Below are positions 220-24,903 of a DNA stretch of 64,000 nt, in pieces; positions within the stretch are counted from its first letter, which is position 1; each line of letters opens with the position of its first letter. The stretch is from Methanomassiliicoccus luminyensis B10 (GTDB lineage Archaea; Thermoplasmatota; Thermoplasmata; Methanomassiliicoccales; Methanomassiliicoccaceae). The translations under genes were made by a program, and so were the position numbers. The stretch covers positions 1 to 64,000 of the forward strand of contig NZ_CAJE01000017.1 in NCBI RefSeq assembly GCF_000308215.1, in the 5' to 3' direction. Below the pieces are notes generated by a model. The model saw nothing but the letters and a program-made list of their open reading frames with translations. It had not been told where the DNA came from and did not search any database.

Positions 220-329
220 ACTAAAATAAAAAAGGATTATTAATGGGTTATCTTTTATGTAATGCACATGATGTGGTCTACTCTTCTTTGAACAATACCA
301 GATTAAAATAAAAATTCACTTTCCAAATA

Positions 330-1298: not shown

Positions 1299-1423
1299 TG
1301 ATGGTTATCTAGGACTATGTGATAAAAGGATGTCTCATCTCGTTCCAACATCCATTCGACAGGTTGAAAGCCGTAATGGCTATTTTCTCATTAACTATGT
1401 CCCTCGTTGGAGTTAAATCCCTG

Positions 1424-2437: not shown

Positions 2438-2664
2438 AAAGAAAAATACTTGTCTACAAATAAGTTTGTACTCTCTACCTAATGGATTACGATGTTGGGC
2501 TCAAAAATTTCTAGTGTGGTCTAGTATCAGTATAATGTCGGATTCAGAAGAGTGAAGCCAATAATACAATAAATGAAATTGAACTGAGTTAACAGGAACA
2601 ATGAAACATCACGCTCTCGAAGGTACAACTACATGTTTCAAGAAGCCGTGGTTGATATTTGGGT

Positions 2665-3330: not shown

Positions 3331-3440
3331 TCGAGTAAGCATGATGTATTAAGGATAGTGAAAATGACCTAATCCAATAGTGGATAAGGAAAAGAAAGGG
3401 TTTGAGTTGACTCTGTTCGATGATTGAATTTCGATATTCA

Positions 3441-3499
3441 TCATCTGGCTCGAAGAATGTGCGGTCCCGGCTGAGCCCACTCATCTTCCTGTCCAGACA
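3441..3499. repeat. Dispersed hairpin repeat, copy 1
   Basis: CATCTGGCTC, a 14-nt variable spacer, then CCCGGCTGAGCCCACTCAT. GGCTC and GAGCC can pair. The same arrangement recurs at 5262, 26188 and 28479, always in this orientation and always 3' of a minus-strand gene (here 3977-4903). Confidence 0.75.
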
Positions 3500-3976
3500 G
3501 CAATCCTGATGGGTCCAACTATAGCTACACATCGATTTACTGGCCATGGATTTTGCTACCGGCATTGGAAAATGGTGCGCAATATCTGGCATAGCCATGG
3601 TTCGGTCCCACCGGGAATCACCGCGCGTTCGAACATCGAACGAATTTATTGACGACCCATGAACAATTTTTATGGCTCGCGGCCTAGTTGGCCGAACGGC
3701 CCAAAAGATCATGAACGTTCATTGAACATTAAAACACGAAAATGCTGAACATTATGGCATTTGCCCCTTGAGCTGCTGAAATTCCCATACGATCGCCGGA
3801 TGCTGGGCAAGGTAACCGCAACCTCTGTATTTTCGAACAGGGGCTCTAGTTTATATCGGGCGGATATCCATGAGACAGCATTGGAATGAGATTCTACGAA
3901 TATCGATCCCGGTGATTTTTTCAATGGTGTCGGAGCAACGCCTATTCTATTAAGCTGATAAAGAGCTCAGGAAGCA
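3500..3976. other. Non-coding or decayed stretch downstream of the Fic gene
   Basis: No convincing gene. Two minus-strand open frames (3284-3712 and 3709-3924) have no start signals or recognisable domains. The second contains a Tyr/Leu/Glu-rich segment that could be a remnant of a former gene, but I cannot name it. Together with the repeat at 3441-3499 this fills the space between two converging genes. Confidence 0.4.
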
Positions 3977-4903
3977 TCATTGAGCGCCTGAAGCTTTTCT
4001 TCCAACGACCTCGATATATAATTGAAGGGCCCTCTCGCTCGATTGCCATCTGTTCTTTACCTTAATTGCAGGGAGTTCCCCCTGATCTGCCCTCAGGGCC
4101 AGGTACTTTGCCGAATATGTCTCGCCACCCTGGAATTTGACCAAGGGCTTCAGCTCGTCTTCTATGGTTCCCACCTGGGACAAGAGGTTTAGGAGCGAGC
4201 TGCCTGTTCTGACCATGATGAAATCGGTCAAGGGTGCTAGGTCACCGCGATTTCCTGCCTGGAGCGATTTCAAGTATGCTTCGCGGTCACCCGGAAGAAC
4301 GTTAACTGGCGGCCAGTTATGCTTCATGAGGTGGAGATTCAACAATAACCTCCCCACACGACCGTTCCCATTGCTAAAGGGATGAATCGATTCGAAACCA
4401 TGATGCATCCAAGACCCTAACGTGAATGGTTCCTCTCCCTCCAAGTCCCTCTGGTCATATTCCTTGATCAGTTCTTCCATTCGCATAACGACCTTCTCTG
4501 GTCTGGGCGGAGAGAACTGAGCCCCACGAATGACTACATTGGTGCGTCTCCATTGGCCTGCATCGGCCATCAGTCCCTTGAAAATCTCTTCGTGGAGTTC
4601 AAGTATGTTGATAAGATCGATAGGCCGTGCTCTTCGGTTTATCAGGTTCCTAAAAGCCTTCTCGTGTTGCAGGGTCTCCATTATATCTGCGATCGGTTTT
4701 TCGACCCCTTTTTGATCAAGGAGGACCGTCTCTACTTCATCATAGGTGAGAGTGTTGCCTTCTATTGCGTTCGTACCGTAAGTGTTTAAGGAGCTCATCC
4801 CTTTCCAAATATTCTCGGGCAATGCGTCCAACGACCCCCTATTTAGAAATTCACCTCTGAGTTTCTCTAATATGTATTTTTGCATTATCCATGAATATGC
4901 CAT
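3977..4903 (-). CDS. Fic-family protein adenylyltransferase
   Basis: Fic-domain enzyme that is expected to transfer AMP (or another nucleotide moiety) to a protein hydroxyl. The catalytic loop HPFSNGNGRVGR (about residue 174) has every core residue of HPFx[D/E/N]GNGRxxR. An N-terminal TNAIEGN (about residue 43) fits the inhibitory [S/T]xxxE[G/N] motif, so this is probably an auto-inhibited class II Fic protein. The C-terminal 60 residues look like a small winged-helix-like tail. At 308 aa it is of normal length. A TATA-like tract lies 5-35 bp upstream of the ATG, so the transcript is nearly leaderless. Single gene; no antidote protein is seen beside it. Confidence 0.9.
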   Translation of the reverse strand: MAYSWIMQKYILEKLRGEFLNRGSLDALPENIWKGMSSLNTYGTNAIEGNTLTYDEVETVLLDQKGVEKPIADIMETLQHEKAFRNLINRRARPIDLINILELHEEIFKGLMADAGQWRRTNVVIRGAQFSPPRPEKVVMRMEELIKEYDQRDLEGEEPFTLGSWMHHGFESIHPFSNGNGRVGRLLLNLHLMKHNWPPVNVLPGDREAYLKSLQAGNRGDLAPLTDFIMVRTGSSLLNLLSQVGTIEDELKPLVKFQGGETYSAKYLALRADQGELPAIKVKNRWQSSERALQLYIEVVGRKASGAQ

Positions 4904-9333: not shown

Positions 9334-11253
9334 ATGGGGTTTGATAGTCAAGCTGATAACTCGGATCTACGCTTGGGAACGGTTGTGCCCGGCGAGGAAT
9401 ATATTATGGCGGCAGACAGGCATAAGGGCGTAATGTCCAGAGGCGGTTCCGCACCCGAGCGCATCTCCCCTCGGCGCATCATCTTCGGCATGACCTCGGT
9501 CGCAGTGCTGTTCTTTCTTCTTTCAGCGAGCATGATCCCATCGGTGGACGGATTCGAAAGGCCGCCGCCGGTGACCAATGGAAGCGCGGGGGCCAATGTA
9601 ACCTATGACATCGATCTGAACTCCATGTGCATCACCTTTGAGGGCAGCGGCCCCATGTATGACTATGACGATCCCGATGTCCCGCCCAACGACCCCCGGG
9701 CCGGTGCTCCCCCGTGGTCCGAGCTCAACCTCAGGAGCGCGATCATAGAGAAAGGCGTGACGAGAGTGGGCGACAGCGCTCTCCGGTACAATCCGGATAT
9801 TGCGAGCGTAAGCCTCCCTGATGGACTTGAGTCGATAGGTACCAATGCATTCTCCGGCACTTCCATAACACTAATCGACCTGCCGGATACGCTCACCAGC
9901 ATAGGCACGCTGGCATTTTTCGGTACAAGGCTAACGGCCGTGACCGTTCCGGATTCCGTGGAGACGATAGGCGGCAGCGCCTTCGCCAAGAACGTTAACC
10001 TTGCCACCGTCGTCATCGGTGACGGGGTCCGCATCCTTTCCCAAGGCCTTGTGGCGGACACTCCTGTCCTGACATCGTTCACCATCGGAAAGAACGTCAC
10101 CGCGATCGAGAGATGGCTTACGAGCGGCTCCGGCCTCAAGGATCTGTGCATACCGGGGAAGGTGGCATGGATATCCCCGGAGGCCTTCTCAACAAGGTAC
10201 CTCGATTCCCTGGAACGTATCGATGTGGAACCCGGCAACGAATATTATTCCAGCTCGGACGGCATACTTTTCAACAATGACAAGAGCGAGATCGTCAGAT
10301 TCCTCCCCACCTCCGGGATTGCGGAGTACTATATACCGGACGGCGTGGAATCCATATCCCCTTTTGCGTTCTACATGTGCATCTCACTGGAAAGGGTCGT
10401 GCTTCCAGATTCGGTGGGATATATCGGTAAGAACGCCTTCGGACAGTGCACCGGAATGAAATATCTGTCCATATCCGACGGTGTTACCCAGATCGACAAG
10501 TCCGGTGTGGACACCGGAAGCGTGCTTGAATATCTGTATATCGGAAGCGGAATGAAGGCCGTTGACGGCACTATCGTTCCGTCCCTCGGTTCCGCGATCA
10601 ATATACACATCGGCGCCGGCGTCACACATCTGGATTATGAAACGATGAGGCAGAACCCCTACCTTAAGAGCATAACCGTCGATCTCAACAACCCTCATTT
10701 CGCGTCTGTTAACGGTGCACTCTACAACAACAACATCAAACAGCTGCTCGTCGTTCCTGGCGCTTTGACTGGCCATTTCATAATGCCCAACAGCGTCACG
10801 CATATAAGCGATAACTCGTTCAGATACTCTTCCTTGTCTTCCGTTACCCTGAGCAACGATCTTTCGGTTATAGGCAGGGGCGCGTTCGCGGGCACCTCCC
10901 TCACAAGCATAAAGATACCTCTTAGTGTGAAGATCATAGGTGATGATGCCTTTGCAGGCTGTTCCAATATGACAATGATCCACTTTGAAGGGGGGGCCCT
11001 CCCGACGATAGGCAGGAACGCCTTCGACACCGGGGGGTCCGAGGCCGTAAGGGTGTATTCGGCCATGACCCCCGGGTTCCTGGACAGATATTCTGGAGAT
11101 ACGGACCTAGCGTACTACGACTCCGAGGCATCATATGCCAGCATTGTCGACGAGATGGCCCGCAACACTGCCTATATACTTGTGGCCATTGTCATTCTGT
11201 CCGTATCCTTGGTAGGAATAGAGGTGGCGATCTCCAAAAAGAGCAGAAGGTGA
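9334..11253 (+). CDS. BspA-type leucine-rich-repeat surface protein
   Basis: Membrane-anchored cell-surface protein. Hydrophobic segments lie at about residues 50-68 (signal/anchor) and 612-632 (C-terminal anchor followed by SKKSRR). Between them are about 15 LRR_5 repeats of the form L-x2-I-x-IP-x-(S/G)-V-x2-IG-x2-AF-x-(G)-C/T, period about 23 residues. These are the Treponema pallidum/BspA-like repeats common in gut-associated microbes, where they are thought to mediate adhesion. ATG 9334 follows GGGG at 6 nt; ATG 9406 (after GAGG) would give a shorter n-region and is an alternative. Convergent with the next LRR gene, whose stop is 1 bp away. Confidence 0.88.
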   Translation: MGFDSQADNSDLRLGTVVPGEEYIMAADRHKGVMSRGGSAPERISPRRIIFGMTSVAVLFFLLSASMIPSVDGFERPPPVTNGSAGANVTYDIDLNSMCITFEGSGPMYDYDDPDVPPNDPRAGAPPWSELNLRSAIIEKGVTRVGDSALRYNPDIASVSLPDGLESIGTNAFSGTSITLIDLPDTLTSIGTLAFFGTRLTAVTVPDSVETIGGSAFAKNVNLATVVIGDGVRILSQGLVADTPVLTSFTIGKNVTAIERWLTSGSGLKDLCIPGKVAWISPEAFSTRYLDSLERIDVEPGNEYYSSSDGILFNNDKSEIVRFLPTSGIAEYYIPDGVESISPFAFYMCISLERVVLPDSVGYIGKNAFGQCTGMKYLSISDGVTQIDKSGVDTGSVLEYLYIGSGMKAVDGTIVPSLGSAINIHIGAGVTHLDYETMRQNPYLKSITVDLNNPHFASVNGALYNNNIKQLLVVPGALTGHFIMPNSVTHISDNSFRYSSLSSVTLSNDLSVIGRGAFAGTSLTSIKIPLSVKIIGDDAFAGCSNMTMIHFEGGALPTIGRNAFDTGGSEAVRVYSAMTPGFLDRYSGDTDLAYYDSEASYASIVDEMARNTAYILVAIVILSVSLVGIEVAISKKSRR

Positions 11254-11254
11254 T

Positions 11255-13165
11255 TCATCTTCTTCTGAGGCATACCGCCGTTGCCGCGAGCAATAGCGCT
11301 ATTGTTGCGATCGCCGCGATCATGATCGCGGAGGCCCCCTCTCCTTCCTGATCTTCCCATATGCGCGCCTCGTATTGCGATATGCTCTCCGCATCCTCCC
11401 ATGACGCAGAGTGTTCCTCATCATAGAATATGGTGAAATCCGGATGCGCTCCGCGGAACACGTGTACCCCGAATTCAGGAGGGGCTCCCTCGAAGTGCGC
11501 ATATCGCATTTCGCTGCATTCGTACATCGCCCGGTCTCCCACATACCTCACGCTCGAAGGTATCGTCACTTCCGCAAGCGACGTGAAGGAAAGAGCGCGG
11601 GGGCCTATCTCCGTGATCGTGGAAGGTATTGTTACTTTGCTGAATTTCGCACCCTGCATGGAGTTGTCGCCCAAGGCCGTCGTTCCGTCCGGTATCGTGT
11701 ATGACGAGAGCGCTTTTCCCGAAGGATAACATTTCAATTCCATGTCCTTGCTGAACAGAACTCCATCGATGGAAAGGAATTCCGTGTTGCGGCTGTCGAC
11801 CGTTATGTCCGTCAGCCGGGGACAGGACAGGAATGCATCCCTTCCGATGGTTCCGGTGCATTCCCCGATGCTCACGGTCATCACACCGGAACTTTTGAAC
11901 GCCCCATCCCCTATGGATACCGCGGAATCGAGCACCGCTTCCTCCAAGGCCACGCAGTTGTAGAATGCCCCGGACCCTATGCGTTCGACGCCCTGCATCG
12001 GGAAGGAGATCAGGGATGTGCATTCCGAGAACGCATTGCTCCCTATTTCGGTGACGCCTCCGTTGACAAGGTTCAGATCAGTCAGGCTGCTGTCGGATAG
12101 GAATGCGCTGTTCCCCACCGACCCGATCGTTCCGTATGCCGTGACGGTTCTGAGCGCATAACAGTTGTCGAAGGACCAATCCGGTATAGCGTCTATCCCC
12201 GAGCCGAGCGTCACGCTCTCAAGCTTGTAACACGCCCTGAACACGCCTTCTTTGTACGTTGTCACGGAATCCGGAACGGTCACGGCCGTGATCTCACAAT
12301 TCATTCTGAAGCTTTCAAAGCCCATATACTCCAGACCGGACGGAAGGGTCAGAACTTCGAGGGACGCTTCCGACCCGGCACTGGATGAAGGGATCTCCAT
12401 CCTGAACGCCTCGTCGTCTATGGCCAGAAGCGTGGAAGGAAGGGTAAGGGAGGATAGGTTCTTGCAGTACATGAACGCCCTTTCCTCTATCATCGACACC
12501 CCTTCGGCGATCGAGACTTCCGTGATGTTCCAATTGCCGTAGAACGCCCACGGTGCCACCGATCTCATCTCATATACAATTCCGTCCTTCGTGACGGATG
12601 CTGGTATCTCCACCCTGCTGCCGGACATCCAGCCGCACACGTGCGCCGTGTCGTTGACGATGTAATATTTCAGAGAACCGTCCGAATATTCTTCGGTCTG
12701 GGACTTTGAACCAGAATATCCGTCCCACGATCCCGAATGCGCGGACAGGTAGTGGGCCGCTGCGCTGCCGAGCGCGCCCTGCCCGATCTCCGGCATGGGC
12801 CCCATGAAATAGATGTCGTTCAACTGCATACATCCGCTGAATGCGTTCTTACCGATGACAGTTACCCGTTCTGGTATTATCACCGTCTTGAGATATGTAT
12901 TCCCGGAGAACGCGGAATCCCCTATCGAAGTCACCTGGTATCCTTCCATGGACGACTGTACGGTAAGGTTTTCCGCCGTGCCCGAGTAGGCGGTGATCTC
13001 CGACCAGTAACGCCCGTTCTGCAAGTGCGTCGTGTATTGGTAGGTGCTCTCGTCGAAGGTATTCCATTCGTCGAATGTGGGCTCGGCGGACGATCCCACC
13101 GGTTGAAGGGACAGGAGTGCTGTTGCAAGGAGCAATGCTGCAGCTAACACCGCCATCTTACGCAT
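11255..13165 (-). CDS. BspA-type leucine-rich-repeat surface protein, last gene of six-gene operon
   Basis: Starts with a clear signal peptide (residues 1-28, hydrophobic AVLAAALLLATALLSL, then SSA cleavage-like site), followed by LRR_5 repeats from about residue 78 to 590 with an interruption near residues 135-180, and a C-terminal membrane helix (about 610-630) ending CLRRR. It is therefore exported and held by its C-terminus. Its ATG overlaps the stop of the preceding membrane-anchored protein by 8 nt, so translation is coupled. Context (ABC-2 exporter, a second LRR protein, two unknown membrane-attached proteins) suggests it belongs to a dedicated surface complex. Confidence 0.88.
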   Translation of the reverse strand: MRKMAVLAAALLLATALLSLQPVGSSAEPTFDEWNTFDESTYQYTTHLQNGRYWSEITAYSGTAENLTVQSSMEGYQVTSIGDSAFSGNTYLKTVIIPERVTVIGKNAFSGCMQLNDIYFMGPMPEIGQGALGSAAAHYLSAHSGSWDGYSGSKSQTEEYSDGSLKYYIVNDTAHVCGWMSGSRVEIPASVTKDGIVYEMRSVAPWAFYGNWNITEVSIAEGVSMIEERAFMYCKNLSSLTLPSTLLAIDDEAFRMEIPSSSAGSEASLEVLTLPSGLEYMGFESFRMNCEITAVTVPDSVTTYKEGVFRACYKLESVTLGSGIDAIPDWSFDNCYALRTVTAYGTIGSVGNSAFLSDSSLTDLNLVNGGVTEIGSNAFSECTSLISFPMQGVERIGSGAFYNCVALEEAVLDSAVSIGDGAFKSSGVMTVSIGECTGTIGRDAFLSCPRLTDITVDSRNTEFLSIDGVLFSKDMELKCYPSGKALSSYTIPDGTTALGDNSMQGAKFSKVTIPSTITEIGPRALSFTSLAEVTIPSSVRYVGDRAMYECSEMRYAHFEGAPPEFGVHVFRGAHPDFTIFYDEEHSASWEDAESISQYEARIWEDQEGEGASAIMIAAIATIALLLAATAVCLRRR

Positions 13166-13985
13166 TTTCTTTTTCGTCCCCCTGCAACGGATCCCCTTCC
13201 TGCGCCAGGGGCTTCGACCATCTGGGTTTTACGAAGGACATTGCCAGCAGCGTCGCCACGGCCGCGACCATGATGATCGAGAGGATCGCGATCCATGTGC
13301 TGCCTGAACTCTCGAATCCTTCGATGCTGTAGTAGACGGTTGCGTTTATGGTGTTCGTTGAATCGTTCACGAACCACAGCGGGTACACGCCGTTCTCTTC
13401 AATGTCCACCGTCACCTCGTACGTCCCTGTCTCTGCATCGTACTTTGCCAGCCTGGCTATGTTCTCTCCATCGAAGTATGCTGTCATCTTCGCCGGCTTG
13501 GTCGACCATTTGATAATCGCCGTCGAGCCCTTCATGAAGAAATGCTGTATGCTATCCACACCCACGAATTTCTCGAACGTCAGCTGAAGGTATCCCTCAA
13601 ATAACGTCCCGGAGAAATTATAGAATTCGAGTATCACCTCGTATCCGTTGGCATAGGTTTCCGAACTGAAGAAATACGCTGCCACTCGGTCCCCTTTCTG
13701 TATGACGGCGAAGTCGTGGGCCGGCAGGAACACCGACGTCTCCCCGTTCACGTACCTGAGGAACTCCTTGTGGTTGTCTGAACCCACTATGAAGAAGTAG
13801 TAGGAGTTCTCTTCATATGAGGGAAGTGTGCCCAAACTTATGAACTCTGAACAGTAGACATTCTTCACGTTCATCTGTTTCTGGTTCTGTACGTCCGTCG
13901 CTCCCTCCGAATAAGGTGAGAAGCATACCGTCAGCATCGTTAGCGTCATTATCACTGCTAGCGCCGGCACGGTTCTTTTCATCAT
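13158..13985 (-). CDS. Membrane-anchored extracellular protein of unknown family
   Basis: 275 aa: signal peptide at residues 1-29, an extracellular beta-rich domain of about 200 residues (many Tyr, Phe, Thr and Gly), and a C-terminal membrane helix (about 232-252) with a charged 23-residue cytoplasmic tail. No known catalytic motif. The middle section (YFDGENIARL...VTVDIEENGVYPLWFVN) looks like an immunoglobulin-type or accessory sandwich fold, which is a guess. The start overlaps the permease stop by 4 nt (ATGA) and the end overlaps the LRR gene, making it an obligate part of the operon. It may be an exporter-associated subunit. Confidence 0.75.
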   Translation of the reverse strand: MMKRTVPALAVIMTLTMLTVCFSPYSEGATDVQNQKQMNVKNVYCSEFISLGTLPSYEENSYYFFIVGSDNHKEFLRYVNGETSVFLPAHDFAVIQKGDRVAAYFFSSETYANGYEVILEFYNFSGTLFEGYLQLTFEKFVGVDSIQHFFMKGSTAIIKWSTKPAKMTAYFDGENIARLAKYDAETGTYEVTVDIEENGVYPLWFVNDSTNTINATVYYSIEGFESSGSTWIAILSIIMVAAVATLLAMSFVKPRWSKPLAQEGDPLQGDEKENA

Positions 13986-14902
13986 ATCTCCCTACTCCTT
14001 GTCTTGGACATCCCTATCAGAAGGAACAATACGCCGCAAATAAGACTGGCCGTTGCCGCAAGCGGGACAGATGCGGTCATTTGGACATCGATATTGGTAA
14101 GCAACAACGATACGGACAGCGTCTGGTCGGACCCCAGAGACGCAAGTGCGAGGTCCCCGGCGAAGCTCGGCACGTATCCCACGAGATCCCCGAACCCCCC
14201 TGCGTCCGCCATTATCAGAGTGAATGCGGGTATCATGATGAATATCAGTACGAAGGGGAACATCGTGGAACCGTGGGACATGAATGCACTAAGCCCGTAT
14301 GCGATGCTGCAGAATGCGAAACTCCCCGCAATGCTCAGAAGCATCGCCTCCCCTATGGCCGCCGAACTCACGGAATCGTATCCTGCAAACGTGGCCATCA
14401 ATATGGACACCGCGAACGCCGACAGGATCGTTGCCAATACCAATGCGTATCCCGCGAGGAACTTGCCCAGATAGAATGTCATCCTGGACTGCGGCAACGG
14501 GAAGTTCAGATACGCCGTGCGGTACCTGAACTCAGAGGGCAACATGGACCCGCATATCATACATGAGATCAGGGCCATCATCACCGGCAGCAAACCCAGG
14601 CATATGGCGACGTATGTCTCTCCCGTATCGCCGATCTCCTCGCGGATGGGATTGATTATGGCGCTGTCAAGTACGCCGGAATATATCAAGACGGGGATAA
14701 GGGCCACGAATACGATCATCAGGATCGGCAGATAGCTCTTTGTGAAGAGCTTCATCTGGCTCAGGAAGACGGTCCAAAGTTGCCCTGCCTTGTTGGTTAA
14801 TTCATATTTCTCGTCTCTTTGCTTGTTCGCTCCATAATTGTCATACACATTCTCTTCCATTCGGCCGAACATGTCGGACATGTTAATTCCGGGCAGCTTC
14901 AT
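13982..14902 (-). CDS. ABC-2 type transporter permease
   Basis: Integral membrane protein with about six hydrophobic helices: residues 55-75, 100-125, 148-178, 185-205, 215-235 and 282-302 counting from ATG 14902. The N-terminal 45 residues are cytoplasmic. The frame is open upstream, but ATG 14902 overlaps the ATPase stop by 4 nt (ATGA), which fixes the start. Together with the ATPase at 14899-15861 it forms an ABC-2 exporter. Sitting between genes for secreted or anchored proteins, it may move a lipid or modify or assemble the surface proteins; the LRR proteins themselves carry Sec signals. Confidence 0.88.
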   Translation of the reverse strand: MKLPGINMSDMFGRMEENVYDNYGANKQRDEKYELTNKAGQLWTVFLSQMKLFTKSYLPILMIVFVALIPVLIYSGVLDSAIINPIREEIGDTGETYVAICLGLLPVMMALISCMICGSMLPSEFRYRTAYLNFPLPQSRMTFYLGKFLAGYALVLATILSAFAVSILMATFAGYDSVSSAAIGEAMLLSIAGSFAFCSIAYGLSAFMSHGSTMFPFVLIFIMIPAFTLIMADAGGFGDLVGYVPSFAGDLALASLGSDQTLSVSLLLTNIDVQMTASVPLAATASLICGVLFLLIGMSKTRSREI

Positions 14903-15861
14903 TCGACGTTTACCTCCCCTTCGGTCAGTTCCATATACAGCTGCTCTATATCCAACCCCTTCTCGTTCATTGCCATCAGCCTCAGGCCATGTTCCTGAAC
15001 GATGTCGACCACCCTGGACTGATCGTCGGTGGAGCCGCAAAAATCAAGCCTTACCTCATAATCCCCCATGAGGTTCACGGACCTGACCCCCGTGCTTGCG
15101 GATATGTCTTTTATAAATGTCTGTGTCATCGGTTTTACGGTGCGTACACTTAGCTCCACCCTTCCCTTGGACCTGTCCACATAATCTTTGATGAGCTTGT
15201 TGACATCACCGGAAGCTATCAGCTTCCCGTTCCTGATCATGCTGACAGATCCGCACATCTCTGACACTTCCTTCAGCATGTGCGTGCTTATGAGCATCGC
15301 GCGGTCCCTTCTCTTAAGTTCGGAAAGGACCGCACGCATCTCGATCATCCCTCGGGGGTCCAGACCGGAGGTGGGTTCATCGAGTATCAATATGCTGGGG
15401 TTGGAGATCATGGATTGGGCTAGCACGGTCCTCTGCCTCATCCCCTTGGAGAATTTGCTCAGAGGTTTGTCGCGCCATTCCCACATCTTCACCTCTTCCA
15501 GCACATCCCTGGACCTTATGGCGATCTCCCGCTCATTGAGCCCATAGATCCTTCCAACATACTGCAACGCCTCGGAAGGCGTGAATGACGCATAGAACTC
15601 TGGTGTCTCGATGACACACCCCACTTCCGAAAGCGCGGTGCGATGGTCGGATATATCCTGACCGTTTATCATCACTGTGCCTTGCGTGGGCCATATTAGG
15701 CCAGTGATCATCTTCAGCGTCGTGCTCTTTCCCGAGCCGTTCGGACCGAGCAGACCCATGAACTCTCCTCTGCGCACATTCATGCTCAGATCGTCCACCG
15801 CCGTAAACGACCCGAACCTCTTGACCAGCCCACGTGCCTCTATAGCGCATCCTTCGTCCAT
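14899..15861 (-). CDS. ABC-2 type transporter ATP-binding protein
   Basis: 320 aa ATPase with Walker A GPNGSGKST (about residue 39), Q-loop, signature FSKGMRQR in place of LSGGQ (usual for ABC-2 drug/polysaccharide types), Walker B ILILDEPTSGLD, and switch His in STHML. The last 90 residues form the typical accessory domain of the CcmA family. ATG 15861 is preceded by GAGGTG at 6 nt spacing, and that Shine-Dalgarno overlaps the stop of the upstream gene. Partner permease overlaps by 4 nt. Confidence 0.93.
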   Translation of the reverse strand: MDEGCAIEARGLVKRFGSFTAVDDLSMNVRRGEFMGLLGPNGSGKSTTLKMITGLIWPTQGTVMINGQDISDHRTALSEVGCVIETPEFYASFTPSEALQYVGRIYGLNEREIAIRSRDVLEEVKMWEWRDKPLSKFSKGMRQRTVLAQSMISNPSILILDEPTSGLDPRGMIEMRAVLSELKRRDRAMLISTHMLKEVSEMCGSVSMIRNGKLIASGDVNKLIKDYVDRSKGRVELSVRTVKPMTQTFIKDISASTGVRSVNLMGDYEVRLDFCGSTDDQSRVVDIVQEHGLRLMAMNEKGLDIEQLYMELTEGEVNVE

Positions 15862-15870
15862 CCGAACACC

Positions 15871-16818
15871 TCACAGGCCCCAGTTCATATCATCAGGAGT
15901 CTGCCACGGGGTCGGAGGGTTGCCTCCGGCCGACTTGGACCCGTGACCTATTCCGATGTACATGTCCGAAGTTATCGACAGCTCCGAGAGATTGCATGAT
16001 TCCCACGCAGTCCCGTTCCACATAAGGGAATGGAGTTGCGACCCTACGTTGCCGATCCTGTTTATCGTGCCGCTGGCATCGTTGTATCCTATCATCACAT
16101 TGTTGCCGAACGCCCTTTTGCACGCATCCCTGAACGCATCGGCCATTGTTCCCCCGTATCCCGTCACCCAGTATCCGTCAGCCACGAATCTGTCCGTCTG
16201 TGAAGAATACGGTTGCGATTTGACGGCCGGAGGGTCATTGTTGTAGTTGTCGTAGAAATAGAATTTAACGCCGGTGCCGGTCCCCGGTTCCTTGGACTCC
16301 CCGAAATACCACTGTATGTCATCAGGGGTCTGCCACGGGGCCGGAGGGTTGCCTCCGCTACCCCCGGACCATCTCCCATGACCTATGGCCATGTACTTTA
16401 CTTTGTACGTCTCCGTACTTCCGAGCCATATATCCGAGGTCCACTTTCCTCCTGCCCACCCTATGTGTGCATAATTGCCATCCGTCGTGTTGGCCCACCC
16501 ACCCAGACCGTCGCCGGTCATGACGACATCGATGCCTGCCCGTTCACATGCATCCTTGAAGCATTCTGTCTTGGTGTCGCCGTATCCTTTGACCCAGAAT
16601 CCGTTGGCCAGATGTGTGTTTTCAGCGAGCAGCCCCGACTTTTGGTCATATTCGTAGTTGTCGTAGAAGAAGAAACTGATGTAGCCGCCCTCAGTTTCGC
16701 CTTTCCCAACGTTTTCCCCCTCGCCGCCATCGTCACTGAGATACACATAGGCCAGCGACGAGGCCGCTATCACCACGACCGCCAGAATCGCGAAGAGCTT
16801 TGAAGTGTTAGCATTCAT
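15871..16818 (-). CDS. Secreted protein with two tandem copies of an unknown domain
   Basis: 315 aa. An N-terminal signal anchor (residues 5-25) is followed by a Gly/Glu linker and two homologous domains of about 115 residues. Each domain has F(F/Y)FYDNY at its start, a W-V-(K/T)-GYG-x-T-x2-(A/C)-F-(K/R)-DAC block, a VM segment, and ends with IGHG-x-(S/W)-(G/A)GNPP-(A/T)-PWQTPDD. The repetition is also visible at DNA level. I know no family with this signature. GGAGGAG lies 9 nt before ATG 16818, so the longer open frame back to 17070 is not used. It is second in the six-gene operon, 35 bp behind the LRR gene. Confidence 0.82.
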   Translation of the reverse strand: MNANTSKLFAILAVVVIAASSLAYVYLSDDGGEGENVGKGETEGGYISFFFYDNYEYDQKSGLLAENTHLANGFWVKGYGDTKTECFKDACERAGIDVVMTGDGLGGWANTTDGNYAHIGWAGGKWTSDIWLGSTETYKVKYMAIGHGRWSGGSGGNPPAPWQTPDDIQWYFGESKEPGTGTGVKFYFYDNYNNDPPAVKSQPYSSQTDRFVADGYWVTGYGGTMADAFRDACKRAFGNNVMIGYNDASGTINRIGNVGSQLHSLMWNGTAWESCNLSELSITSDMYIGIGHGSKSAGGNPPTPWQTPDDMNWGL

Positions 16819-16853
16819 TTTGATCATCTCCTCCCATTTGTTCGGATGTCGTA

Positions 16854-18875
16854 TTATCCTCTCCGTTTTGACATTAAACGCTCCGCTACGATAAGGGCCG
16901 CGGAGAACAGCACTATCCCGATCGCCAAGAGGGTAGTGTTCCCTCTGACCTCTTCCAGCAGACCCACCGGCCTGACCTCTGAGTCGTAATATGACAACGT
17001 TGTGAACTTCCCGGCATAACGGTCCATGAAGCCTGCCGGGAAGACGGAATACACTCTCAGACTGCCCCACTTATCCACATCGCCAAGGTAGAACGAGTTA
17101 TACCCCATGCTGGGCGGTTGACTCCCTTCGAAGAACACCATCTTCAAATTCACGCAACCGGAGAAGGCCTCGCTTCCGATGGATGCGACCTTCTTTGGTA
17201 TCTTTATCGATGTGATGTACTTGTTGCCATAGAACGCCCCGCTGCCTATGCCCTTCAGGTTCTCGCTCATGACCACCTCCGATATCGAGGTGTATTGGAA
17301 GACCCCACCCCGGATATACTCGATCGTGTTGGGCATAACATACTGTCCCGATTTCCCGGCGGGGATGAGAACGATGTCCCGCATGTTCTTCGTGTATACT
17401 ATGTTCCCCACGGAAGTCAGCTGAGTGTTTTCGGGGTCCACGTTGACCTCCCTCAGCTTTCCGTAAGCGAAGAGTTCCGTGCTTATCGAGACAACTCCTG
17501 TGCCCAGGTCCAGAACCTCCAGGTTCCTGTCCAACATGTTGTCTGTTATCGCCGTTATTCCATTACCGATCTTCACATATTTCGCGGAAATGCCCTTCTC
17601 CTCTATGCTCTTGACACTGTTCGGAACTGTGACAGAGTCCAAGCAGATGGCCATCTTTCCTATTGACAGGACCGTATTGGATATCACAAGTTCCTGAAGG
17701 TTCGTGTCCCAGAAGACAAGGTCCCCTATGCTGATGACATACCTTGGCACCTCATACACGGGATCCATCCTTCCGGGAGGATATGCAACGAGCTCTACCA
17801 TTCCCTTTGTAAACAGAACACCTTCGTAACTCTCAAAGAACTGGTTCCCTTCATCGACATAGATATTAAGAAGGGACGAACCCGTGAAGGCCGTTGTAAC
17901 GGTATCCCATTCAGTGAAAAAATAAGCGAAGTTCTTAGGCAGGGTTATCGATTTCAGAGACGTCGTTCTGGGAAAGACATCCGTATCCATTCCCGTGACG
18001 CCATCGCCGAACGTTACATCGGTCAGCGCCGTACAGCCCCCAAAAAGACCGGTGTTTATCATCGACACTCCGTCCCCGATCACGGCCTTTTCCAAACCGG
18101 TGCATCCGCTGAACACACTGCTTCCGAGGGAAACGACGCTGTTCGGCACCGTTATTGTCCTCATGGTAGTTCCGGAGAACGCTCCGTTCTCTATTCTATT
18201 GACGCCTTCTTCTATGTTCAACGTTTCAAGAGTTGATATGCCGCTGAATGCACCAGCGCCTATGATGTTTACATTTGACGGTATCGTCAGTGATACCAGT
18301 TTGGTCCCGCTGAATGCTCCTGAACCTATCGTGGTAACGTTGGACGGTATCTCCAGCACATTAAGCGCTGTTCCGCTGAATGCGTTGGAACCGATCGTCG
18401 TCATTTTGGGAGGTAGGATAATAGAGGTCAGCATGGTCATGCTGAATGCGCTGTTGCCTATCGAAACGATACTGTCAGGAAGATCTATCGACATTATGGA
18501 TGTGCCCGAGAACGCGGACTCCCCGATTGTCAGCAGCCCATCCGGCAGAGTCACCGTTTTTATCTCCGGATTATATGCGAAGATGTTGCCCCCCAGGCCC
18601 GTTATGCCTGTCTCGACCGTTACTGTCTCGACAGACAGGTCCCTCCATCCCGGAAGCCCGTAGGCGCCTCCCTGCTTGAAGTCATATGTGCTTCCTTCGC
18701 CTTTTATCGTAAGTGTTTTGGTATCGCTTTCATACGCCCATGTCGCCTTTTGTCCAGCCCTGCCGGAATCGGTGACTTCTGCGGCCACGTCACCAGAGGC
18801 GAAGGATGTGTTCAATGAGATGAGGGCCGCAAATAATACGGCTGCCACCACGATGAACATCTTTTCCTTTCCCAC
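16854..18875 (-). CDS. BspA-type leucine-rich-repeat surface protein, first gene of six-gene operon
   Basis: About 673 aa. Signal peptide (KEKMFIVVAAVLFAALISL), a short beta-rich N-domain with TWAYESDTKTLTIKGEG (a sequence style shared with the giant protein at 20365), some 18 LRR_5 repeats, a C-terminal membrane helix near residues 645-663 and a KRRG tail. I place the start at GTG 18875 because AGAGGT sits 6 nt upstream; ATG 18860 is the alternative. The frame extends to 18947 without support. It heads an operon of six genes with gaps of at most 35 bp. A TATA box and a duplicated motif upstream suggest regulation. Confidence 0.88.
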   Translation of the reverse strand: MGKEKMFIVVAAVLFAALISLNTSFASGDVAAEVTDSGRAGQKATWAYESDTKTLTIKGEGSTYDFKQGGAYGLPGWRDLSVETVTVETGITGLGGNIFAYNPEIKTVTLPDGLLTIGESAFSGTSIMSIDLPDSIVSIGNSAFSMTMLTSIILPPKMTTIGSNAFSGTALNVLEIPSNVTTIGSGAFSGTKLVSLTIPSNVNIIGAGAFSGISTLETLNIEEGVNRIENGAFSGTTMRTITVPNSVVSLGSSVFSGCTGLEKAVIGDGVSMINTGLFGGCTALTDVTFGDGVTGMDTDVFPRTTSLKSITLPKNFAYFFTEWDTVTTAFTGSSLLNIYVDEGNQFFESYEGVLFTKGMVELVAYPPGRMDPVYEVPRYVISIGDLVFWDTNLQELVISNTVLSIGKMAICLDSVTVPNSVKSIEEKGISAKYVKIGNGITAITDNMLDRNLEVLDLGTGVVSISTELFAYGKLREVNVDPENTQLTSVGNIVYTKNMRDIVLIPAGKSGQYVMPNTIEYIRGGVFQYTSISEVVMSENLKGIGSGAFYGNKYITSIKIPKKVASIGSEAFSGCVNLKMVFFEGSQPPSMGYNSFYLGDVDKWGSLRVYSVFPAGFMDRYAGKFTTLSYYDSEVRPVGLLEEVRGNTTLLAIGIVLFSAALIVAERLMSKRRG

Positions 18876-18952
18876 GTGCCTACCTCTTATTTCTGTTTTG
18901 CCAACCGCGATGATGAGAAGGAACAATCGCACACCATGGGCGGCCATTTAAG

Positions 18953-19023
18953 TTGGATGTATGCTCCCAGATATACTGTTAATTGGATGTATTCTCCCAA
19001 ATACATTGTAACTATTTATATTT
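18953..19023 (-). promoter_or_regulatory. Promoter with duplicated operator-like motif
   Basis: In the gene's direction: TATAAATA (19013-19020), then 14 bp, then GGGAGAATACATCCAA (18983-18998), then 14 bp, then GGGAGCATACATCCAA (18953-18968). The two copies are 30 bp apart. The same motif follows the TATA box of the giant LRR gene at 20279-20291. The expected start site falls on or near the first copy. Confidence 0.65.
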
Positions 19024-19237: not shown

Positions 19238-20210
19238 GTGAGAAAAGAGAACACCTCGTTCACATCGTTTGGAGAATTGAAGATGAACGAGGTGTTCGAG
19301 TGCGAGCCGGCGAAGCATGTGCATAAACAACGCGACTGGTTCAAGGTCAGGAAGTACGTTGTAGAACGGATCAGGAAGGGCAATACGCAGTCTCGCGCCG
19401 CATATCTGATCCGGGTGCCGGTGGCGTTCGCAACGAAGAGACGGAACCGCTGGAACGATGCGAGGTGCAGGGATGTGGTTCGCACGCTGTCGATGAGGCC
19501 CCGGACCATAATGGGGGAGAAGAGGCGGTTCGCCGAGAGCATCGCAGATCTAAGGATGAAATATACTTTTCTGGGCACGCAGAAGATCATGACGATGCTC
19601 GACATTGACCTCAATCATCAGAAGGTACGCGAGGTCCTAGTCGAGAATGGTCTCGTGAGACAGGGGCCTAGGAAGCGTCGCGTATGGCGAGCGTCGAGCG
19701 CAAGCATCTGAACTCGCTGTGGCATTGCGATATCAGGGAGGCCGATGATGTCAAGCCCAGGCCCCTATTGATGCTCTTCGACGATCACTCGCAATCCACC
19801 ATCGCGTCGAAGCTCTTGAGGCCGGACACCGCTGAGGTAGTGTCAGAACTGTTAATCGTAACATTGAGTGTCTTTAGCGTCCTCGCCAAATGTTGGCTGA
19901 CCACGCTGCATTTCTACACAACAGGCGGCCGTCCGACTGTTTTCGGATGCACCCGTGAGTTGTTGGGAATCAAGCACATCACGGCCGGCGTTCGCCGGCA
20001 GACCACGTGCGGCAAGATCGAACGCTGGAATCGCTCGCTCCAGGAGGGGTTCATGGACAGGCTGGATGGTACGAGAGGTTCGAGGCGGATCTCCCATAAT
20101 GTCTGGAGTGGTACAGCTGCCACAGGCCTCATCACTCCCCGGTCTGGGATCTCCTGTCGGTGTACTTCATCGATCTCATGAGCATCGATAACTTCGCCAT
20201 GACGACGAAC
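19238..20210 (+). pseudogene. Decayed DDE (rve-type) insertion-sequence transposase
   Basis: Two overlapping frames (19238-19711 and 19684-20181) together read like an IS481/IS3-group transposase. The first gives an N-terminal helical/HTH part. The second begins with the catalytic core: LWHCDIREAD, a FDDHS motif, and the downstream GKIERWNRSLQE containing the third acidic residue. A further frameshift near 20075 and an in-frame stop separate the usual C-terminal end, still readable as LEWYSCHRPHHS in another frame. So the element has at least two frameshifts and is inactive. I could not identify its terminal inverted repeats. It separates two divergent LRR genes. Confidence 0.75.
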
Positions 20211-20258: not shown

Positions 20259-20323
20259 TAATATATGCCCCTGCTGATGGAGCATACATCCTACATATCC
20301 AATATGATGGATGATATATCCAA
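20259..20323 (+). promoter_or_regulatory. Promoter of the giant LRR gene with shared motif
   Basis: TAATATAT (20259-20266), then 12 bp, then GGAGCATACATCC (20279-20291), followed by further imperfect CATATCCAA and ATATATCCAA elements up to 20323. This is the same order and orientation relative to the gene as at 18953-19023. Confidence 0.6.
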
Positions 20324-20364
20324 CTAAACGCAAGGATATGTTGGAAAGAGCAGGATTGATTCCG

Positions 20365-23300
20365 ATGACGAGGAATGGCGCATACGACAGCCCGAAAGCA
20401 GGCAGGCCGCTTCTGGCAATGGCCATCATAGCGGTGTTCTGCCTCGTGGCGGGAGCACTGGCAGTGTTGATGTCGAACGACACGTCGGCAGAGAGTTTCG
20501 CGTACGAATACGATGAGGGAACGTACACCCTCACTATAACCGGCGAGGGCGCAATGCCCAACTACACTGATGCATGGGACGGTTCCGGAAGGCCTCAGTG
20601 GTACAACATCAGGAACGATGTCGCGACCGTCGTTATAGGCGACGGAGTCACATCGATCGGCAACTATGCGTTCCAGGACTTCATCTCACTCCAGAAGGTC
20701 GAGTTCGGAGAGGCGAAGATAACCCGCATAGGGAACTATTCTTTCGGAGCATGCAGCGTGCTGCGGTCGTTCACGATGCCTGACACGGTGACAGCGATAG
20801 GGAACTACGCGTTCACGGGATGCAGCCAGCTGAGATCCATTGAGATACCGGCAAGCGTGGGAACCATGGGTACATACTTATTCAACTCATGTTCGAGCCT
20901 CGAAACAGTAACATTCGCCACCGGCACGATCATTGCCAGCATTGAGAATGTGTTCAGGGGCTGCACCGGCCTTAGTTCGATCACCATACCGGACAGCGTC
21001 ACGAACGCAAAATCTGCATTTTACGGCTGTTCCAACCTCGCCTCCGTAACTTTCGGGACCGGTCTGACCGCCATAAGCGACCAGATGTTCTCAAATTGCA
21101 AGAAGCTCGAGACGGTAACACTGCCGGGCACCATCACTCAAATCGGACAGGGGGCATTCTACAAGGCAGGGATCAAATTCATAGATCTTAAGAGCATAAC
21201 ATCGTTTGGCAATTCCGCTTTCAGAGACTGCGTCTCGCTTGAAAGCATAAGCATCCCCGCGGGCACCACTGCCATTCCGCAGCAGATGTTCGACGGATGC
21301 ACGGCGCTTAAGACGGTGGACCTTCCCGGCTCCATCGAAACGATAGGCGGTTCAGCATTCCAGGGAGCCGCTTTGGAGACGTTCAAGGCGCCGGACAAGG
21401 TGAAGGAGCTGGGAGACTATGTGTTCAAAAAATCAAAACTCAAGACCCTGGACCTGAACAACGTTGAGAGCATTGGATACGAGACCTTTGCCTATTGCGC
21501 GAATTTGACCGACGTGGACATAGGTAAGTTGAACACTATAGCCAGAGAGTACTCGTTCAGAAGCTGTACCTCGTTGCAGACGATGAACCTTACAGGGGTC
21601 GATATCACCGACGCATCAGACATGTTCTACGGATGCACGGCGCTTAAGGAGGTGACCCTGGACGACGATGCAACGACCATTCCGGCCGCGATGTTCATGG
21701 GCTGTTCTTCGCTCACGACAGTCAAGATGGGTGACGAAGTGATATCGTTCGGAGCCAGCGCGTTCGCCGGCTGCGAGGCGCTGGAAACCCTAAAGTTCCC
21801 GGCCACGCTTCAAACGATAGACAACAGCGCTCTGAAAGGCACCGGCTTAAAGAGCGTCACCCTCGGCGCGGGAGTGAACTCCATCGGAAGGGGAGCATTT
21901 GAAAAGTGCACTGCCCTGAAAACAGTGGACATGAGCAAGGCCATCAAACTGGAAAAGATATTAGAGGGAACATTCCAGGACTGCACCGCCCTGACGGACG
22001 TGATCTTACCTGAGGGGCTGAAGGAGATATACCAAAATGCGTTCTGTCGCTGCACGTCGCTGAAGGCCATTGATATACCCGCGTCCGTGACCGGACTGGG
22101 CCTCAGCCAATGGGGGTCCAGCAACCAGGGTTCATTCCAGGGATGTTCTGCGTTGGAGACGGTGACGGGAGGGGAGGGGCTGAGCACCGTATACGAATTG
22201 ACGTTTAACGGATGCAAATCGCTTAAGGCCATAGGGTTCGATCTTGCGGAGTCCTCTCCGTTCAAAGTAATGGACGGCGTCCTCTATCAGAAGACAGGGG
22301 AAACTCTGAAGCTCCTGTACCTGCCGGGCGGAAGGACCGGAGCGTTCACGGTCCCTGACGCTGTCACTTCGTTCGGGACCTATGCGTTCACCGGCTGCAG
22401 TATCTCCGAGATAGTGTTCACCGCGAACGTCCCGGACCTCGCCATATCCCTGGCGGGCAACACGAACCTTGTGAAGGTGACGCTGCCCGAAGGAATAGTA
22501 TCTATTGGAGACGGTAGATTGGGACTTGGGATATTCGATGGATGCACAGCGCTGAGGTCCATCACGCTGCCGAGCACGCTCACTACGATAGGTGCTAACT
22601 CATTCAGGGGCACCGGTCTTGAGAACGTAGTCCTTCCCAACAAGGTAAAGACCATGTGGGGTTCTGCATTCGCCAATTGCGTGAACCTGAAGAGCATAAC
22701 CTTGGGATACAACCTCAGTACCATTCACCCAGGTACATTCCAGGGCTGCGCGGCACTGGAGAGCATCGATCTGAGGTATATCGTCACGGTGGAGCAGTAC
22801 GCGTTCAACGGCTGCACCAGCCTCGACGAGATTAAGTTCGGGATATATACACACACCCTGAACAACGCCTTCATCGACTGTACCGCTCTGCAATATGTCT
22901 ACCTCGACGGTGTCGATCTGGCTATAACAGGTAGCTCGTTCTCCGGCTGCACCGCGCTGGGGAAGGTGGTCTTCGGAGAAGGGGTGAAGACAATAGGTCC
23001 GCAGGCGTTCACCAACTGTCCGAACCTCATGAGCATAAATGTGGTCTATGAGAACCCCCACTTCGCGCTGTATGACGGAATGATATTCACTGCGGATTTC
23101 ACCGACATACAGTTCATACCGATGACCAAGACGCATGTCGTCATACCGGACACCGTGAAATATATCCCCGCGATAAGGGACAAGGGCGCGCTCCAGTCGA
23201 TCGTGTTCGGGAGCGGCATAGTGAGGTACGACTATGAAAACTACGAAAACAGGGGCTACCCGCTCGATAGATGCACCGCGCTGGAATCCGTGACCATCGG

Positions 23301-24903
23301 CAAAGGGGCGTTATATGTGGGCGGCCTGACTTTCGCCTCCTGTCCCAACCTGAAGGAGGTCATACTTCCGGAGGGTCTGTTGGAGATATCCGGTTCGGTG
23401 TTCGAGGGCTGCACAGGGCTGAAGCAGGTAGTCATACCCAGCACCGTGACCAAGATCACCAGTGGTGCCTTCGGGGGATGCACCAATCTGACAAAGATAG
23501 AGATCGCTCCGGCGGAAGCGCCCAGAGAGAACGTCCTGTTCGTGAAGAACGGCGTGGTGTACAATGCCACTGGAACGATGCAGTGCTATGCTCCCGGACT
23601 GAGGGACATAGTCGTGCCGGACGAGGTCAAGAAGCTGTCAAGCTTCGATAGTGATCCGAACCTGAGATCGGTGGTCATAGGCACCGGGGTGACAGAGATA
23701 AGTACCTCCGGATCGTCCGGGTACTGTTCGTTCGGTTACAGCTCGATCGAGACGCTGGTCCTCGGTCCGAGGGTCGTGAAGATCGACGGATGGGCAGTGC
23801 TGTACTGCCCCAACCTGAAGGACATCTACATCACCGGCTCCGTCCCGCCGGCGTTCACTGAAAATGTGTTCAAGGGCATGAGCTCGGATCAGGTGGTGAA
23901 CATACACTCGGTGCACGGAGAGGGATTCATTACCGGACTTGAGGACTCGCCTACCTTCGTGTACACGACGTGGGGCATGAAGGTGACCTTCAACGCTCCT
24001 GAAGTCGGTATCGTGGTGGACGTGAACCCGCTTCCCTACGTAGCGTTCGACGGGAACGCCACGTTCACGATATCTCCGGCCAAGGGATATCGTATGCAAG
24101 TATCCGCCACCGTGGGCACGCTCACCAACGTGGGGAACGTGTACACCCTGTACAACATCACCGAGGATACCGTTATAACCGTAGCTGCCGAGTTCGTGGG
24201 AACGATCGATGTTGACGTCGATGATATACTCACCGACGGAAAGATCGATGCCGACAAGCTGCTCGACCTCCTGACCGGGCCGGGATACAACCCGGACGGA
24301 GTGAACATCAGGATGGACAAGGGCAGCCTGTACCAGATACCGGCGGAGGCGTTCGCGTCATCGGCAGGAAAGCATCTGTCGGTGACCATATACGACGGAG
24401 CCACCGTCATATACACCTGGACGTTCGATACGTCGGGAGCGATGGGGACGGCGTCGAACATGAACCTCGCCATAACTTCCGCGTTGTACGGTTCCGGCGA
24501 TGCCCTGGACCAGGCGGTGAAGGAGTACATCGAGAAGAACGGGAAAGCGGGCAAAGCGATCTACCTGAACTTCGCAGCTTCCGGCACCCTCCCTTATGAA
24601 AGCATAATAAAATACTTCGTGGGGAAGGAATACGCCGGACAGACGTTCTCGCTGTTCTACTACGGGTCGGCGGAGCTGGTGAACCAGGATCAGACGGTGA
24701 CGGTGGACGGCGACGGGTACGCGGAGATGCGGATAGCGCACCTCTCCTCCTACGTCCTGATAACGGACGACATGGCGGCCGGTAAAGGCGAGGGCGGTGA
24801 CGACAGTGTGCTCATCATCGGCGCCGTCGTGGCCATCGTGGCTGTTATCGGCGTCCTGGCATTGTTCCTGGTAAGGAGGCGGAATACTCCGAAGCAGAAA
24901 TGA
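20365..24903 (+). CDS. Giant BspA-type leucine-rich-repeat surface protein, about 1,512 aa
   Basis: Exported adhesin-like protein. Order: signal peptide with hydrophobic core LLAMAIIAVFCLVAGALAVL; N-domain FAYEYDEGTYTLTITGEGAMPNY; roughly 45 LRR_5 repeats (IG..AF.GC..L..V.LP) to about residue 1190; a beta-rich domain resembling the InlB/B-repeat style (MKVTFNAPEVGIVV..., about 1,210-1,280); a C-terminal alpha/beta region; and a final membrane helix (DDSVLIIGAVVAIVAVIGVLALFLV) with an RRRN tail. Upstream ATGs at 20311 and 20338 are open, but ATG 20365 has AGGA at 9 nt and lies beyond the regulatory motif. It is the largest gene in the window; the likely role is binding host or community surfaces. 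Confidence 0.9.
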   Translation: MTRNGAYDSPKAGRPLLAMAIIAVFCLVAGALAVLMSNDTSAESFAYEYDEGTYTLTITGEGAMPNYTDAWDGSGRPQWYNIRNDVATVVIGDGVTSIGNYAFQDFISLQKVEFGEAKITRIGNYSFGACSVLRSFTMPDTVTAIGNYAFTGCSQLRSIEIPASVGTMGTYLFNSCSSLETVTFATGTIIASIENVFRGCTGLSSITIPDSVTNAKSAFYGCSNLASVTFGTGLTAISDQMFSNCKKLETVTLPGTITQIGQGAFYKAGIKFIDLKSITSFGNSAFRDCVSLESISIPAGTTAIPQQMFDGCTALKTVDLPGSIETIGGSAFQGAALETFKAPDKVKELGDYVFKKSKLKTLDLNNVESIGYETFAYCANLTDVDIGKLNTIAREYSFRSCTSLQTMNLTGVDITDASDMFYGCTALKEVTLDDDATTIPAAMFMGCSSLTTVKMGDEVISFGASAFAGCEALETLKFPATLQTIDNSALKGTGLKSVTLGAGVNSIGRGAFEKCTALKTVDMSKAIKLEKILEGTFQDCTALTDVILPEGLKEIYQNAFCRCTSLKAIDIPASVTGLGLSQWGSSNQGSFQGCSALETVTGGEGLSTVYELTFNGCKSLKAIGFDLAESSPFKVMDGVLYQKTGETLKLLYLPGGRTGAFTVPDAVTSFGTYAFTGCSISEIVFTANVPDLAISLAGNTNLVKVTLPEGIVSIGDGRLGLGIFDGCTALRSITLPSTLTTIGANSFRGTGLENVVLPNKVKTMWGSAFANCVNLKSITLGYNLSTIHPGTFQGCAALESIDLRYIVTVEQYAFNGCTSLDEIKFGIYTHTLNNAFIDCTALQYVYLDGVDLAITGSSFSGCTALGKVVFGEGVKTIGPQAFTNCPNLMSINVVYENPHFALYDGMIFTADFTDIQFIPMTKTHVVIPDTVKYIPAIRDKGALQSIVFGSGIVRYDYENYENRGYPLDRCTALESVTIGKGALYVGGLTFASCPNLKEVILPEGLLEISGSVFEGCTGLKQVVIPSTVTKITSGAFGGCTNLTKIEIAPAEAPRENVLFVKNGVVYNATGTMQCYAPGLRDIVVPDEVKKLSSFDSDPNLRSVVIGTGVTEISTSGSSGYCSFGYSSIETLVLGPRVVKIDGWAVLYCPNLKDIYITGSVPPAFTENVFKGMSSDQVVNIHSVHGEGFITGLEDSPTFVYTTWGMKVTFNAPEVGIVVDVNPLPYVAFDGNATFTISPAKGYRMQVSATVGTLTNVGNVYTLYNITEDTVITVAAEFVGTIDVDVDDILTDGKIDADKLLDLLTGPGYNPDGVNIRMDKGSLYQIPAEAFASSAGKHLSVTIYDGATVIYTWTFDTSGAMGTASNMNLAITSALYGSGDALDQAVKEYIEKNGKAGKAIYLNFAASGTLPYESIIKYFVGKEYAGQTFSLFYYGSAELVNQDQTVTVDGDGYAEMRIAHLSSYVLITDDMAAGKGEGGDDSVLIIGAVVAIVAVIGVLALFLVRRRNTPKQK

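Follow-up and report, generated by a model that had tools for sequence, protein, structure and literature searches.

A candidate corrinoid-regulated surface operon with an ABC-2 triad in Methanomassiliicoccus luminyensis

Why would a methanogen encode two leucine-rich repeat (LRR) surface proteins in one operon with an ABC-2 exporter? The case in question is a stretch of 64,000 nucleotides (the window) from Methanomassiliicoccus luminyensis B10, on contig C17 (NZ_CAJE01000017.1) of a genome of 2,620,233 bases in 26 contigs. The operon has six genes, all on the minus strand, and runs from 18875 down to 11255:

LRRa, 16854..18875, minus strand: secreted, C-terminally anchored BspA-type LRR protein, 673 amino acids (aa); GTG start at 18875, with an in-frame ATG at 18947 possible; its ortholog heads the operon of genome G115
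TAND, 15871..16818, minus strand: N-terminally anchored protein with two repeats of a predicted transcobalamin-beta/DUF4430-like beta-grasp domain
ATPase, 14899..15861, minus strand: ABC-2 exporter ATPase, first gene of the triad; Pfam ABC_tran, E = 1e-32
permease, 13982..14902, minus strand: ABC-2 permease (ABC2_membrane_2), second gene of the triad
BETA, 13158..13985, minus strand: signal peptide, beta-rich ectodomain, C-terminal transmembrane helix and KPRWSK tail, third gene of the triad; its structural model is of low confidence
LRRb, 11255..13165, minus strand: secreted, C-terminally anchored LRR protein with relatives in corrinoid-importer clusters

In gene order, the junctions are gaps of 35 and 9 bp followed by overlaps of 4, 4, and 8 nt (+35, +9, -4, -4, -8). 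An earlier note on this DNA had recognized the six genes and both gaps, and this part stands; it had also described the last four junctions as overlapping, where there are only three. Its remark that the make-up is unusual holds as well, and the same five-gene order also occurs in a distant genome, G115. Judging by the sequences, the six-gene operon is real, but it is not one fixed system. We consider it reasonably likely that this is a corrinoid-regulated surface scavenging operon that recruited an ABC-2 triad. We favor a corrinoid regulon because the genome context and a shared operator point there.

The operator comes as twin sites, TTGGATGTATnnTCCCA, 30 bp apart in the operon promoter, with a similar pair at a neighboring gene:

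distal operator copy, 18983..18999, plus strand: TTGGATGTATTCTCCCA, 1 mismatch to TTGGATGNATNNTCCAA, just downstream of the TATA-like AAATATAAATAG
proximal operator copy, 18953..18969, plus strand: TTGGATGTATGCTCCCA, 1 mismatch, 30 bp from the distal copy
operator-like site, 20277..20293, minus strand: in the LRRbig promoter, 2 mismatches, 30 bp from the next site
second operator-like site, 20307..20323, minus strand: at the start of LRRbig, 2 mismatches
LRRbig, 20311..24903, plus strand: giant neighboring gene, encoding a 1530-aa LRR surface protein

The LRRa pair lies 15-60 bases past the TATA-like sequence, over the expected transcription start. LRRbig is outside the operon itself and is probably in the same regulon.

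We spotted the operator pattern by inspection, when a common palindrome, TTGGATGTATAATCCAA, emerged from comparing the promoters of importer clusters, and it is backed by loci that were not used in spotting it. Exactly four sites in the window match at two or fewer mismatches, all of them in the LRRa and LRRbig promoters and in pairs 30 bp apart; none of 100 shuffles reached four. At one or fewer mismatches, a looser pattern matches the host genome 34 times, versus 2 for a reversed/mirror control. The exact consensus is present in 115 of the 147 genomes of the order Methanomassiliicoccales, and the control matches in none. With two copies of the palindrome at one mismatch each, the operon bears the mark of the putative corrinoid regulon of this order.

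In the host genome, the sites precede cobT, cbiT-cbiL-cbiF-cbiG-cbiH, cbiC with an ABC-2 pair, chelatases of the CobN/BchH type, cysG-hemA, cbiM (beside a Fur-like gene), and several operons that encode a substrate-binding protein (SBP) with FecCD (BtuF/FecCD). Sites in other genomes are also near CobA, CbiS, CfbA, and many substrate-binding-protein/FecCD operons. We also examined 29 loci outside the host genome; at about twenty of them, a gene related to corrinoids, cobalt, or import lies no more than 400 bases away. An Rfam search gave no match, so there is no known riboswitch, and scans for bacterial promoters and terminators gave results at chance level.

A literature search found no published operator of this sequence, but PMC10746257 mentions predicted archaeal cobalamin regulons (CblR, regulator unknown), so the operator may have precedents. 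Fur-family genes lie beside CbiM, with an adjacent operator site, in two genomes (G000:C20:368-727, L176, and L191:1058-1480), and are candidate corrinoid regulators. At another locus (L173:3222-4637), a gene for the radical SAM peptide-modifying protein CbpB (TIGR04163, above the cut-off) is divergent from an amidohydrolase, and both have operator sites, at 4794 and 4866; a corrinoid-linked peptide product is possible.

What might the surface proteins bind? By eye, TAND has an N-terminal anchor only. AlphaFold predicts a beta-grasp fold for its first repeat (pLDDT 65, pTM 0.69, one good model of five). When we compared this model to known structures with VIA-align, the 13 best rows were beta-domains of intrinsic factor or transcobalamin, at Z = 5.5-6.8 over 88-93 residues, from a modest model (pLDDT 65, four sequences) and in a range (Z < 8) where similarity can be a common arrangement. 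The next match was 3u7z, a DUF4430-type protein that is labelled as a putative metal-binding protein. Foldseek alone was weak (transcobalamin at E = 0.3 at best). With hhalign, TAND matched the N-terminal domains of importer binding and propeller proteins at 90% probability (E = 1.4e-6, calculated for one comparison), where one of the sets included a Pfam DUF4430-positive protein. On these models, TAND is predicted to contain two beta-grasp domains that are closest to the beta-domain of intrinsic factor and transcobalamin. Elsewhere in the host genome, Pfam finds DUF4430 in one protein, which is not TAND. In a second DUF4430 context in that genome (L127:3673-7016), a Pfam-positive DUF4430 protein and a propeller are encoded beside an ECF-type transporter.

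The domain is also linked to importers by gene neighborhood. The TAND profile matches proteins in 43 of the 147 genomes. Of 65 TAND-type proteins, 43 have, at a distance of 10 kb or less, a gene for a BtuF-type protein whose N-terminus is DUF4430-like; about 1.6 would be expected, if we assume 1.6-Mb genomes and ignore contig ends, which reduce the observed count. For instance, a cluster at C12:461-470 kb of the host genome encodes an LRR protein, a BtuD-like protein, FecCD, a propeller, an SBP, and a TAND-like protein. Its importer subunits have their best or near-best scores to models of the corrinoid ATPase, BtuC, and BtuF, all below the cut-offs. SBP, FecCD, and BtuD are also present in the sister clusters L119, L042, and L033. 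PMC10804542 describes BtuC as abundant in Methanomassiliicoccales and a btuCDF locus that adjoins adhesin-like proteins. One TAND protein, from G080 (L042:7657-9792), has five Flg_new_2 (InlB B-type) repeats ahead of its two TAND domains.

LRR proteins are part of the same association. Both end genes match Pfam's LRR_5 (E = 8e-82 for LRRa and 4e-72 for LRRb), and LRRa, LRRb, and BETA each have, by eye, an N-terminal signal, a C-terminal hydrophobic helix, and a basic tail. With PF13306 repeats, a signal, and a C-terminal anchor, LRRa and LRRb are BspA-type LRR surface proteins. Nearly all close relatives of LRRb outside the window adjoin genes for TAND or BtuF-type proteins, and in G116, G041, and G042, TAND and LRR matches fall within a single open frame. 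LRR_5 proteins are clustered in the host genome (2.62 Mb): 4 of roughly 11 fall in C17:9.3-25 kb. A third LRR protein in the window, LRRc (9334-11253), resembles LRRa; it is on the opposite strand, and its end and that of LRRb are 1 bp apart. We found no operator upstream of LRRc. A secreted beta-helix (NosD-like) protein is encoded near the LRR cluster, at 26366-28333.

Could LRRa, LRRb, and TAND instead be adhesins that attach the cell to corrinoid-producing bacteria or to mucus, so that a corrinoid regulon controls adhesion and the operon's proteins bind no corrinoid? BspA-type LRRs have been linked to adhesion. PMC7883539 counts LRRs among adhesion factors and names as an outlier M. luminyensis, whose LRR counts resemble those of the host-associated clade. 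PMC10804542 places B12 transport genes next to adhesin-like proteins. But the TAND domain resembles a corrinoid-binding domain, and its linkage to BtuF-type proteins is far above chance. We consider adhesion as the sole role unlikely.

The middle of the operon is an ABC-2 exporter: the ATPase (ABC_tran at 114.1 bits, cut-off 25) and the permease (ABC2_membrane_2 at 29.3 bits, cut-off 27.2; E = 7e-7) both exceed Pfam's cut-offs, and their adjacent genes overlap by 4 nt. The core is a coupled triad of the ATPase, the permease, and BETA. A search with a permease profile found the triad in 28 genomes, including that of the window; the other 27 are all Methanomethylophilaceae. In each, the permease gene is followed by a gene for a BETA-type protein, mostly with a 1- or 4-nt overlap, and is preceded by the ATPase gene. 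The BETA-type proteins have a signal peptide, a beta-rich body, a C-terminal helix, and, in most cases, a KPKWSK-like tail. The triad of the window conforms, with coupled genes and a third protein that has a signal peptide and a K-P-[KR]-W tail. The ATPases of aligned triads are 59-73% identical. In the host's own family, 14 further genomes yield weak matches at most to the permease profile (E = 1e-19 or worse, versus 1e-128), and no relatives of the triad were found in viral contigs.

BETA has no match at E ≤ 1 in Pfam and nothing of use in NCBIfam. Its model is poor (pLDDT 55), so we did not use its Foldseek list. Sequence searches of the Protein Data Bank with profiles of the permease, BETA, and TAND found no usable relative.

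By the earlier note's own standard, related genomes with the ABC-2 pair but no LRR neighbors would refute its reading, and such genomes are common. As far as the stretches that we read reach, an LRR gene is near the triad in 5 of the 28 genomes: in the window and G115 it points the same way as the triad, and in G073, G075, and G098 it lies on the other strand. The ABC-2 pair and BETA are found in many genomes without a nearby LRR gene, so the LRR proteins are not obligate partners.

G115 is a Methanomethylophilaceae genome assembled from a sheep-colon metagenome, and its contig JAFVZR010000088.1 has the order LRRa-TAND-ATPase-permease-BETA, as in the window. The proteins from the window and G115 are 73% (ATPase), 56% (permease), about 60% (BETA), and 48% (TAND) identical. 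Within BETA, the ends of two G115 contigs are identical over 141 bases, which implies that the operon continues, through a short TAND-like protein (read by eye), to an SBP, a propeller-FecCD fusion, and an ATPase. The gene order is common to two families, yet no other genome of the host's own family has it, which suggests lateral transfer or sharing between the host lineage and Methanomethylophilaceae.

These data bear on a second alternative, in which an insertion placed an LRR/TAND surface island on one transcript with a general ABC-2 triad and the two have no joint function. The triad is alone in most genomes, and without the operator there; the operon is bordered, at 19238-20181, by transposase-like remnants; and four LRR genes cluster here. 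However, the five-gene order is kept across families despite 48-73% identity, which argues for selection on the unit, and a chance junction seems quite unlikely. The remnants are two overlapping plus-strand frames that resemble, by eye, a broken integrase or transposase, with no match in Pfam. The operon has a G+C fraction of 0.51-0.56, versus 0.58-0.64 in other stretches of the genome. Positions 1-4000 of the window, at 0.38-0.41 (versus 0.49-0.68 in the rest of the window), are likely foreign DNA.

Third, the system might gather cobalt or another metal instead of intact corrinoids. The regulon includes the cobalt transporter CbiM, whose gene neighbors one of the Fur family, and the label of 3u7z points to metal binding. 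But most sites precede genes for corrin-ring assembly or FecCD importers, which carry chelates, and the best fold matches of TAND are corrinoid carriers. We view a metal-gathering system as very unlikely. The earlier note's proposal of a surface display, lipid-modification, or signaling apparatus deserves almost no credence: the nearest solved structures to the ATPase are ABCA lipid transporters, and anchored LRRs could be exported or modified, but the operon encodes no enzyme, sensor, or sortase, the triad is rarely accompanied by LRR proteins, and context and operator favor a corrinoid regulon.

Several observations weigh against a corrinoid scavenging operon. TAND has no match in Pfam at E ≤ 1, DUF4430 (PF14478) included, and nothing of use in NCBIfam; the modest quality of its model, described above, also counts here. 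None of the six genes in the window encodes an SBP, FecCD, or BtuD. Both operator copies at LRRa read TCCCA where the palindrome has TCCAA, a difference of one base, and the site before LRRa in G115 is weak. Some sites precede genes without an evident corrinoid role, as on C15 (an alcohol dehydrogenase) and on C21. In most other genomes, no operator was found upstream of the triad, and importer partners beside the triad are confined mainly to genus g18, where FecCD neighbors occur. We considered whether the triad itself is always part of corrinoid uptake, and dropped this idea on these last two grounds.

Methanomassiliicoccales form methane from methylamines via corrinoid methyltransferases. 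Because this metabolism needs those enzymes, corrinoid supply may limit these archaea in the gut. The sequences themselves show the operon, the conservation of the triad, the linkage of the domains, and the common operator, whereas the ligand, its hand-over, the regulator, and the cargo of the triad are inferred. If the operon does scavenge corrinoids, then under corrinoid scarcity a regulator would leave, or activate at, the twin sites that overlap the expected transcription start, and LRRa, TAND, the ABC-2 triad, and LRRb would be produced together. LRRa and LRRb would form an anchored capture or docking layer that holds or docks a corrinoid source. The ligand of the two transcobalamin-type domains of TAND would be the corrinoid, free or in complex with a protein, and TAND would pass it on to a BtuF-type protein whose N-terminal domain is similar. 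Import would proceed via BtuC/BtuD-type proteins, which are encoded elsewhere in the host genome and next door in G115. The triad would be an older module, with BETA acting outside the membrane together with the ATP-driven pair.

The cargo of the triad is the weakest step. Our first choice, which we hold only tentatively, is that it exports a corrin-pathway molecule or a scavenging ligand, because the regulon includes two more ABC-2 pairs, which belong to another subfamily: CbiC-ABC2 (L172:7418-9702) and FecCD-FecCD-CobN-ABC2 (L171:6039-13723). As a second choice, ATP might be used to drive BETA or its neighbors.

How does this compare to known systems? BtuG, a beta-propeller at the surface of gut Bacteroides, acquires B12 from intrinsic factor (PMC6143338). 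As with BtuG and BtuH, surface proteins of the proposed system would supply the BtuFCD importer of a gut microbe, and the sister importer operons encode a beta-propeller. In contrast, it has no outer membrane or BtuB, its capture parts would be LRRs and transcobalamin-type domains with predicted binding, and an ABC-2 triad is added. TAND is predicted to have a beta-grasp fold, with the intrinsic factor/transcobalamin beta-domain and a DUF4430-type protein as its top structural matches, but identity is just 3-9%, TAND has two tandem beta-domains and no alpha-domain, and it does not match DUF4430 in Pfam. The BtuFCD importers of Methanomassiliicoccales (PMC10804542) share the operator, and the TAND and LRRb families belong to their clusters; the operon in the window lacks importer subunits. 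Like NosDFY-type systems, the triad combines an ABC2_membrane_2 permease, an ATPase, and a third, extracytoplasmic protein, but BETA does not match NosD or a beta-helix in Pfam and there is no N2O reductase context. Neither the operon nor its operator nor the TAND domain is described in the literature passages that we consulted on B12 transport in Methanomassiliicoccales, on LRRs, and on BtuG.

A broader proposal, which is more doubtful, is that gut methanogens use transcobalamin-type beta-domains and LRRs on the cell surface to scavenge corrinoids, under an order-wide archaeal B12 operator, and that an ABC-2 pair with a tail-anchored partner powers a step. If true, this would be an archaeal counterpart of the host's intrinsic factor, and possibly a competitor for it. 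Our analysis yields a candidate B12 operator that spans the order and makes the corresponding regulon directly readable, and it connects surface LRR proteins and transcobalamin-like proteins with that candidate regulon. How these archaea control corrinoid uptake, and how they compete with bacteria and host B12 carriers, become directly testable questions.

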